A DNA stretch of 64,000 nt from Candidatus Azophilus lithoversatilis (GTDB lineage Bacteria > Pseudomonadota > Gammaproteobacteria > Pseudomonadales > Azotimanducaceae): the NCBI GenBank assembly GCA_028278675.1, contig JAQAJJ010000002.1, positions 93,674-157,673 on the forward strand. Reading direction: 5' to 3'. Shown here piece after piece: positions 1,281 to 4,069 of this stretch. The notes under the pieces were generated by a model. It saw only the letters and a list, made by a program, of their open reading frames with translations, did no database searches and had not been told where the DNA came from. The stretch's first letter is position 1; every line of letters begins with the position of its first letter. Position numbers and translations under genes: made by a program.

Positions 1281-2420
1281 TCAGCCCGATGGGCAGGGGC
1301 TGGGGCCGGTGGTCGCACGCGCCAGCATGCGCAACTTGGCAGCGGGCTCGTCGATGTCCATATAGCATCCTTGCAAGTGGCGCGCTCCCAAATTTGGATC
1401 GAAGCCGGTGCGACCGTGCAGCACCCGGGTGTTGTTGAGCATCAGCAGATCGCCGTCGTTGAACCGGGTGCGCAACACGAACTCCGGGTTGGCCAGCAGC
1501 TCGGCGAAGCGTCGTCTCGTTTGGTGGTAGTTTTGGGTGGCGGCTGCGCTCATCAACGGCAGATGGTCGAGCTTGGTGTTGTAGCGAACGCCGGTCATGC
1601 GGCCCTGCGGGTTGCGCACAATCAAGGGCCCCTCGCTGACCAGTTCCGCTTCGGCGTCCATCCACCAGAAGCGCAGCGGCACGGTGGCGAGCTGTTCGAA
1701 ACCTTCAGGGTCTTCGGCGGCCAGCGCCTCCCCGGCCGCCAAGGCATCCGCTAAGGTGGTTTTGCCGCTCGGATTTTGGTTGACCAGGCAATGCAGGAAC
1801 TGGATGCCCGGCATCGGATTCCGGTAGGGGAGATCGGTGTGCGGGAACAGGGCCACGCTGCTGTAGGCGAGGTCGTTGGATTGCGGGCGGGCATAGACGT
1901 CGAACAAGCGCCCGAAGTTGGTTTCCCGAATGCGGCCGAAACGGGACGCCATATCGACCAGCGAGCCGGGCTCCTGGGGCGTTCCGGTAAAGATGACGAA
2001 GCCCTGCGCGAAGAACAGCTCGATGGCTGCCCGCAAGCCCTCGCGATCGGCTACCGACGCCCAGGGAACGGCCTTCGTCAGCGGCGAATTCCGGTGCCAA
2101 GGGATTTGCGGGGGCGTGACGGGCGGCGGCGCGATCTCTTCGGCTAGGGCTGCGTGCGCGAAGACGCCTGTGTAGCCGTCGCTGAAGCGCAGACACAGGC
2201 TGCCAAGCTTGGCCGAAGCATCGACGATGCTCAGATCGGACGGGAGCACATGGGGGTTGTAGAGGCGTTGCCGGGTGACCGGGTCGAGCGCCTCCGGCTC
2301 ACGAACCCGTTCGCGCAGCCAAAGGGCCGGCAATTCGCGCTCCCGCCGGCCCGGCCCGTCGGTAACGGAAGCGAACACTCTGAATCCTTGGGGGCTTGAT
2401 TCGATTCTAAGCGCATCCAT
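1281..2420 (-). CDS. Gamma-butyrobetaine dioxygenase-like Fe(II)/2OG (TauD-type) oxygenase; candidate TmpA
   Basis: MDALRIESSPQGFRV...HTDLPYRNPMPGIQFLHCL...NDGDLLMLNNTRVLHGRTGF; GGGAGG RBS-like motif upstream of ATG at 2420; next to HD-domain oxygenase gene. Confidence 0.75.
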   Translation of the reverse strand: MDALRIESSPQGFRVFASVTDGPGRRERELPALWLRERVREPEALDPVTRQRLYNPHVLPSDLSIVDASAKLGSLCLRFSDGYTGVFAHAALAEEIAPPPVTPPQIPWHRNSPLTKAVPWASVADREGLRAAIELFFAQGFVIFTGTPQEPGSLVDMASRFGRIRETNFGRLFDVYARPQSNDLAYSSVALFPHTDLPYRNPMPGIQFLHCLVNQNPSGKTTLADALAAGEALAAEDPEGFEQLATVPLRFWWMDAEAELVSEGPLIVRNPQGRMTGVRYNTKLDHLPLMSAAATQNYHQTRRRFAELLANPEFVLRTRFNDGDLLMLNNTRVLHGRTGFDPNLGARHLQGCYMDIDEPAAKLRMLARATTGPSPCPSG

Positions 2421-2530
2421 AAACGTACCTCCCCACGGGCTGCCATCGAAATTATCCGCCCCGCGAAAACGGCTTGCAAGCGGGAACGAGCAGTAGCGAA
2501 CAGCAAAATGAAGCGAATGGAAAGGGGTGG

Positions 2531-3115
2531 CTAAACGAATTCCGCGCTGACGGCGGCGAAAAGCTGATGGACAAGCGGCTCGAAATGGGCCAGGGGCTTG
2601 GTGAGGTAATTTGGATCGAAGCAGTTCTGGTCCCAACGCTCGCAAAAATCCACACAGGCTGCGTAGTGGGGATGGTCCGCGTAGCGATCCCGCTCGTTCG
2701 GGTCGCGTTGGTAGTGGGCAAACCAATAATAGCCTTGGAACAAGCCATGATGCCGCACGACCCACCAGTTGCGCTCGCTGACGTAGGGCTTGAGGATGGC
2801 GGCGGCCACTTGGGAATGATTGTGCGGGGAGATCTGATCGCCGATGTCGTGTAGCAGGGCGACGGCGATGGTCTCGTCGTCCGCCCCGTCCGCCTCCGCC
2901 CGAGTGGCCGATTGCAGGACATGCTGCAGGCGGGAAATGGGGTACGGCGAGGGGCCGTCCATGGACTTCAGCAAAGCAATCATCCGCTCGGCCACTTGGT
3001 CCGCGTTGGCCGAATCGTGCTCCGCGATCAGGTCGTAGTCAGCGCGGGTGCCGTCCGCCATTGCCGTGAAGCTGACGCGGGGCGCCACTGAGCCGTCCGT
3101 TCCCGTTGCGCTCAT
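2531..3115 (-). CDS. HD-domain (PhnZ/TmpB-like, putative diiron oxygenase) protein; candidate TmpB
   Basis: LQHVLQSATRAEADGADDETIAVALLHDIGDQISPHNHSQVAAAILKPYVSERNWWVVRHHGLFQGYYW..; H..HD..H..H..D pattern; same strand immediately upstream of the 2OG oxygenase gene. Confidence 0.7.
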   Translation of the reverse strand: MSATGTDGSVAPRVSFTAMADGTRADYDLIAEHDSANADQVAERMIALLKSMDGPSPYPISRLQHVLQSATRAEADGADDETIAVALLHDIGDQISPHNHSQVAAAILKPYVSERNWWVVRHHGLFQGYYWFAHYQRDPNERDRYADHPHYAACVDFCERWDQNCFDPNYLTKPLAHFEPLVHQLFAAVSAEFV

Positions 3116-3181: not shown

Positions 3182-3606
3182 GTGGCCGCGGATTGCGCAT
3201 GGCTGGGCACCACGGTCGAAAGCCAGCGTTGGGCTGACAAGCGCCTGCCCCACCTTGCCGACGCGGGTGTGCGCATTCGCTTCGTTTCTTGTGAGCCCGT
3301 GCTCGATCAAGTCGAGCTGGCGCCTTGGCTGGAACGCAAGGCTGTCAATTGGGTCATCGCGGGCGGCGAGAGCGGCCCGCACGCGAGGCCGAGCGATCCC
3401 AATTGGTTCTATGGCATCCGGGATCAATGCATCGCCTACGACACGCCGTTCCATTTCAAGCAATGAGGAGATTGGGCACCCGCCGATGCAGTGCCTGGAG
3501 CCGTGCCAAAGTCCGTCGTCAATGGTGGAACACACTCCGCCGCGATGGGTCGATACGGCAAGAAGACCGCTGGCCGGGTTCTGGGCGACCGGAATTGGGG
3601 CGGCCT
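3182..3606 (+). pseudogene. DUF5131 / phage Gp37-Gp68 family (three-Cys-motif) protein, C-terminal remnant with in-frame TGA
   Basis: WLGTTVESQRWADKRLPHLADAGVRIRFVSCEPVL..VNWVIAGGESGPHARPSDPNWFYGIRDQCIAYDTPFHFKQ[TGA]GDWAPADAVPGAVPKSVVNGGTHSAAMGRYGKKTAGRVLGDRNWGG; homology continues past the stop. Confidence 0.7.
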
Positions 3607-3611
3607 GCAGG

Positions 3612-3926
3612 TTACTTCAGGACGCGGCCGACTAGCTTCATGGGACTGCCCCTGACGCCGAACGGATCGATCATTACGAATGCTGGCGCTCGTGTGCTGC
3701 ATCGGCTTGTGCTCCTCAAGCAATTGCCGTAGGCGACGGGCTCTCGCTGGGTCTGACTCAACAAAGTGAAACACGATCTCAACGTCGCGCAATCCATCGC
3801 GACCAAGGGGGAGCCCTGTTGCCCGCTCTCGCACTCCCCAGGACCGGCGAAACCGTCTATGAACAACAACCGTCCGTTCCATCGGCTGAGTATTGGAAAC
3901 CAGCCGTTGAGGTAATGTCGCAGCAA
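3612..3926 (-). pseudogene. Three-Cys-motif partner protein TcmP remnant (frameshift + internal deletion)
   Basis: HYLNGWFPILSRWNGRLLFIDGFAGPGECESGQQGSPLVAMD.. shifts to another frame (LRDVEIVFHFVESDPARARRLRQLLEEH) and back (TRAPAFVMIDPFGVRGSPMKLVGRVLK). Confidence 0.65.
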
Positions 3927-4069
3927 GCGGTGCTTGCCGGCGGTTTGCTCGTCGAGCGGCTACAGCGGTCTGGTCATTGGGGGGTGCTTGTTGGTCGAGC
4001 AGGAATGGACGTCAATTGGGCCGAAGGACCGGACCGAGGATATGCCTCGTGCAGGCTGTTCAGGGAGCC

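Follow-up and report, generated by a model that had tools for sequence, protein, structure and literature searches.

Does the pairing of a 2-oxoglutarate (2OG) oxygenase gene with an HD-domain gene in Candidatus Azophilus lithoversatilis mark a pathway for phosphonate degradation, or a tandem of similar construction with another substrate? The original prediction, read from a window of 64,000 nucleotides (the whole stretch of DNA analysed here), was an organophosphonate-degrading pair of the TmpA/TmpB type. Both genes, hereafter HD and OX, are intact and lie on the same strand, OX starting 110 bp downstream of HD (Table 1), in line with the prediction that the oxygenase gene directly follows the HD gene. 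No phosphonate genes adjoin the pair, as had also been noted. The window neighbourhood consists of Lon, acyl-CoA dehydrogenases and a fatty-acid desaturase, and contains no quaternary-amine gene.

Table 1. Features of the OX-HD locus, in window coordinates.
Feature	Position	Strand	Remarks
HD gene	2531..3115	-	ATG 3115, AGGAG ribosome site, stop 2531, 194 aa
OX gene (TmpA/BBOX-like Fe(II)/2-oxoglutarate oxygenase)	1281..2420	-	ATG 2420, GGAGG ribosome site, stop 1281, 379 aa
Promoter-like site TTGCAA-N17-GATAAT, upstream of OX	2451..2479	-	matches the consensus only; chance expectation in the region 0.6
Insertion of about 1.25 kb carrying the OX gene alone, directly after the HD stop codon	1283..2530		blastn vs L034, L035, L036
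Second insertion, between HD and Lon	3183..4068		about 14 bp at this place in sister species G057
DUF5131 gene remnant, within the HD-Lon insertion	3182-3463	+	Pfam E 2e-30
TcmP-like fragment, within the HD-Lon insertion	3612-3926	-	by eye, no Pfam match

OX, which matches Pfam TauD (143 bits), had been expected to be a TmpA easily misannotated as a gamma-butyrobetaine hydroxylase (BBOX), and it is indeed nearer to TmpA than to BBOX. Its NCBIfam ranking runs from TmpA (303 bits) through gamma-butyrobetaine dioxygenase (216) to trimethyllysine dioxygenase (135), and the corresponding PDB matches have E-values of 4e-52 for TmpA and 2e-24 for BBOX. Both leading scores are below their cut-offs, however (400 bits for TmpA and 415 for the gamma-butyrobetaine dioxygenase model TIGR02409). 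Moreover, the score of 303 is no proof of a TmpA, because BBOX-type proteins reach 293-327 on the same model, whereas OX proteins adjacent to TmpB reach 536-553. In the phylogeny, OX falls in a 14-member clade (support 100/98) that is sister to the TmpA clade (100/100), the two being joined in a 99/96 group. It therefore groups with the TmpA side and not with BBOX, lying outside both the TmpA clade proper and the BBOX-type branches, and is the longest branch of its own clade (1.3-1.5). On the TIGR02409 score and this grouping, we rejected OX as a BBOX.

The HTD...H facial triad and the 2OG-binding arginine are kept in OX, as is a set of residues resembling the aromatic cage (F177, F181, Y194 and Y366 in BBOX numbering). 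Throughout its clade, which we call clade A, Asn191 of BBOX and TmpA is replaced by Asp; in human BBOX this Asn binds the carboxylate. Asn292 of BBOX is Ser in most members. The N-N/A-R-S stretch of TmpA reads S-P-R-L-D in most of the clade and N-T-K-L-D in the window OX, and a Lys or Arg is retained at the position of TmpA R294.

The HD protein matches the Pfam HD family with 28.8 bits, and its NCBIfam matches are weak (Phn-HD 44 bits, TmpB 33 and PhnZ 25, against cut-offs of 215, 300 and 300). The predicted ligand pattern is nevertheless present: H65, H89, D90, H100, H123 and D162 are invariant in an alignment of 66 family sequences, and a profile alignment places the same pattern on that of TmpB. 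An AlphaFold model built on 66 homologues (pLDDT 94) returned only PhnZ and TmpB structures among its ten best Foldseek matches, the sole ones at E<0.001. PhnZ was the best (E 1.7e-6, 21% identity), and TmpB matched with a TM-score of about 0.63. MIOX came next (E 0.12-0.16, 12% identity), while in Foldseek and profile searches HD phosphohydrolases such as YqeK appeared at E>0.3. Weak Pfam MIOX matches also occur in eight of the 66 family members, and one member is annotated as 'inositol oxygenase family protein'.

Although the predicted diiron ligands are kept, the HD protein is not a TmpB or PhnZ. Its family (72 rows in the tree) splits from TmpB and the PhnZ-like proteins with 100/100 support, and the second sphere around the ligands differs, with R62, D93 and Q127 invariant where PhnZ/TmpB have other residues. 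The YxxE lid before the first His, a PhnZ/TmpB feature (PMC8177086; Y24/E27, Y30/E33), is absent, the E27 column holding Tyr or Phe and the Y24 column no Tyr. The HDxGH histidine of TmpB/PhnZ (His62) is replaced by Asp in a block that reads HDIGD; the lysine of HVxAKR/AKRY is Gln in a block that reads HHGLFQGYY; and the LxLQGG block, invariant in TmpB/PhnZ-like proteins, is missing. The family also has an invariant Arg at the third position ahead of the first His, a feature listed for HD phosphohydrolases (PMC8177086). Scores, tree position and missing motifs led us to reject the HD protein as a true TmpB/PhnZ; ligand set and modelled fold instead make it a putative mixed-valent diiron oxygenase whose family is uncharacterised. 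The family is present in SAR11, SAR86, SAR324, Porticoccaceae, Halomonas and Marinomonas.

OX and HD lie together much more often than chance would allow. Of 120 HD loci (40 from the taxonomic family of the window and 80 named ones), 27 contain an OX homologue, compared with none of 40 random control regions, all of which came from the window's own family and were not taxonomically matched to the named loci. Since the named loci had been selected by their HD gene, pairing rates from them are biased, and the control regions and a search blind to HD were added for that reason. In the blind search (399 genomes, 30 OX loci checked), the HD family lay beside four of the 30 OX genes, all four of the window clade, while TmpB/PhnZ-like genes accompanied 13, on the TmpA side, and neither HD type was found at the other 13. 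TmpA matches carried TmpB, and BBOX-type matches carried no HD gene. All 14 members of the window OX clade adjoin an HD-family gene, including those found without HD as bait. A second OX clade (clade B), which lacks the aromatic cage, likewise pairs with the HD family. Most HD-family genes have no adjacent OX.

We annotated neighbouring genes for chosen loci, and these point to quaternary amines. On a P. aeruginosa plasmid the order is LysR, OX, HD, choline-binding protein, choline dehydrogenase and aldehyde dehydrogenase; in Marinomonas, OX and HD are followed by a BCCT transporter; and in Pseudomonas S37, HD precedes a choline-binding-like protein and GbcA/GbcB-like proteins. Genome G458 has OX, HD and a choline-binding protein inside a cluster with GbdR-like regulators, L-carnitine dehydrogenase, a beta-keto-acid cleavage enzyme and BBOX. 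Choline dehydrogenase, SoxA/B-like proteins and formaldehyde dehydrogenase lie near an HD-family gene in G297, as do an MttB-like gene and a BCCT at locus L050, and carnitine dehydrogenase homologues occur at four further HD loci (L043, L107, L126 and L178). At L113, OX-HD ends an MttB-corrinoid-MTHFR-RACo operon, with a serine dehydratase next. Homologues of PhnW and PhnA were found at none of the 120 HD-family loci. By contrast, a PhnZ-like/TmpA-like pair in G158, used as a control, adjoins PhnW, PhnA and phosphonoacetaldehyde dehydrogenase (PhnW-PhnA-PhnY).

Other associations recur around the HD family. RACo-type reductive activators with corrinoid one-carbon genes (MttB, MTHFR) are found near HD at L113/L039, L053, L105, L122, L141 and L160, with RACo in seven of the 120 HD loci, in different lineages, and in none of the 40 controls. 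By tblastn, a class II aldolase/adducin gene (L117, L118, L121, L107, L144, L128, L216 and L217, among others) occurs at nine named loci and two plasmid loci, again compared with none of 40 controls. In the streamlined genomes of SAR11 (Pelagibacteraceae, L133-L181), HD is conserved between purF-like and gshA/gshB-like genes (named by eye). An Acinetobacter HD gene sits in an aromatic-catabolism cluster, a context unrelated to quaternary amines. Lastly, the OX of G458 (locus L237) scores 422 bits on the NCBIfam TmpA model, above the cut-off of 400, and is paired with this HD family and not with TmpB. Given this partner and the surrounding carnitine/choline cluster, the TmpA call is likely an over-annotation by the model.

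The history of the pair in the window could be followed in related species. OX is present in one of nine genomes of the genus, and three other species carry HD (87-92% identity) alone at the matching locus. Aligned DNA shows a clean insertion: these sister species have 18-145 bp where the OX-carrying segment sits in the window. The repeats around it show no convincing mobile-element signature. In the HD subclade of the window gene, the other members that have a partner are paired with OX of the second clade, whereas the window OX is of the first; the window also has HD ahead of OX, while its relatives have OX ahead of HD. HD therefore probably stood alone in the genus at first, and the pair was re-formed here when OX was gained beside it. 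That gain argues for functional coupling, although a single genome and a long branch underlie the argument.

Judged from sequence, then, the pair has the construction of the TmpA/TmpB and PhnY/PhnZ tandems, with an HD partner from a different HD-oxygenase family. The predicted tandem of a 2OG oxygenase and an HD oxygenase thus stands, while its assignment to phosphonate degradation is not supported, given the HD scores and tree, the second-sphere residues and the neighbourhoods of relatives. The substrate is probably not a phosphonate. The separate HD family and the choline, carnitine and betaine genes around its relatives make it probable that the pair degrades trimethylammonium nutrients instead. 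We give a roughly even chance (about 0.5) to the reading that it acts on a trimethylammonium compound other than a phosphonate and is the fifth kind of tandem between a 2OG and an HD oxygenase. For its chemistry, we infer the metal, oxidation state, substrate, cleaved bond and product as follows. With Fe(II), 2-oxoglutarate and O2, OX would place a hydroxyl group on the carbon beta to the quaternary nitrogen (Me3N+-CH2-CH2-X to Me3N+-CH2-CH(OH)-X), after which HD would use an Fe(II)/Fe(III) pair to take the carbinol hydrogen and split the C-X bond. The product, glycine betaine or a like acid, would then be demethylated, here perhaps by MttB-type methyltransferases; the host has two MttB genes and one OpuAC. 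Against a trimethylammonium substrate are the unrelated HD contexts in SAR11 and Acinetobacter, the lack of an adjacent OX at most HD copies, the phosphohydrolase-like Arg, the cage-less clade B, which is HD-paired as well, the window neighbourhood free of quaternary-amine genes, and the long branch of the window OX and its occurrence in one genome of the genus. We found no literature on an HD protein in quaternary-amine metabolism.

A working TmpA/TmpB-like pair would convert 2-(trimethylammonio)ethylphosphonate (TMAEP) to phosphate and glycine betaine; the HD family would then have taken the place of TmpB by convergence. The best match and sister clade of OX are TmpA, the basic residue at R294 is retained, a related OX passes the TmpA cut-off though paired with this HD family, and glycine betaine as a product would suit the betaine neighbourhoods. 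We nonetheless consider TMAEP an unlikely substrate: the HD family lacks YxxE, His62, the AKRY Lys and LQGG, N191 of TmpA is Asp in the entire OX clade, OX scores no better than BBOX proteins on the TmpA model, and PhnW and PhnA are near no HD locus. The host genome also has neither PhnJ nor a PhnD-like binding protein.

The preferred trimethylammonium reading has a more specific version in which OX converts gamma-butyrobetaine to L-carnitine and HD oxidatively cleaves carnitine between C2 and C3, giving glycine betaine and a two-carbon product. OX is BBOX-like, the OX-HD pair of G458 is surrounded by carnitine dehydrogenase, a dehydrocarnitine-cleavage-type enzyme, BBOX and GbdR-like regulators, and the four loci with carnitine dehydrogenase homologues fit too. 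Yet clade A has Asp for Asn191 throughout and mostly Ser for Asn292, and G458 already has a separate BBOX and carnitine dehydrogenase for the carnitine route; we consider this version improbable. Alternatively, HD may be a metal-dependent phosphohydrolase or esterase whose position beside OX is metabolically indirect. This would accord with the Arg at H-3 and with most HD copies being solitary, and YqeK, a dinuclear phosphatase whose HD motif has two additional histidines, is evidence that a site of this sort can hydrolyse (PMC8177086). As Foldseek and profiles rank PhnZ/TmpB well before YqeK-like proteins, eight of 66 members match Pfam MIOX, and the tandem with 2OG oxygenases recurs, we regard a hydrolase as improbable.

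More broadly, and more tentatively than for the pair itself, we propose that a widespread HD diiron oxygenase family may split a C-C or other non-phosphonate bond of hydroxylated trimethylammonium compounds, with two separate 2OG-oxygenase clades as feeders, forming a new aerobic route to glycine betaine in marine and host-associated bacteria. Two reviews name MIOX and the phosphonate enzymes PhnZ, TmpB and PhoF as the only HD-domain oxygenases (PMC8177086, PMC10574752). If the proposal is true, another branch with a different active site would widen HD-oxygenase chemistry and may point to an overlooked sink for choline, carnitine or betaine-type solutes. Metagenome surveys should not count TmpA-like genes with HD neighbours as phosphonate degraders, since one paired OX passes the TmpA cut-off.

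Among known systems, TmpA/TmpB of Leisingera caerulea (PDB 6NPB, 6NPA) shares with the window pair a tandem of BBOX-like 2OG oxygenase and HD protein, the H..HD..H..H..D pattern, a sister relationship on the OX side and a matching HD fold. It differs in its HD clade with the lid and associated motifs, and in Asn at position 191; relatives of the window pair have choline, carnitine and betaine genes as neighbours, not phosphonate genes. PhnY/PhnZ (PDB 4MLM, 4N71) forms a similar tandem, and PhnZ is the closest structure to HD, but at low identity and with substrate-binding residues that HD lacks. MIOX has the same HD-oxygenase ligand pattern, but is structurally remote, and no inositol genes were seen around HD. 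BBOX shares with OX the fold family, facial triad, 2OG arginine and most aromatic-cage positions; OX differs in its sub-threshold score, its Asp for Asn191 and its place outside the BBOX-type branches, and it adjoins an HD gene, as BBOX-type matches do not.
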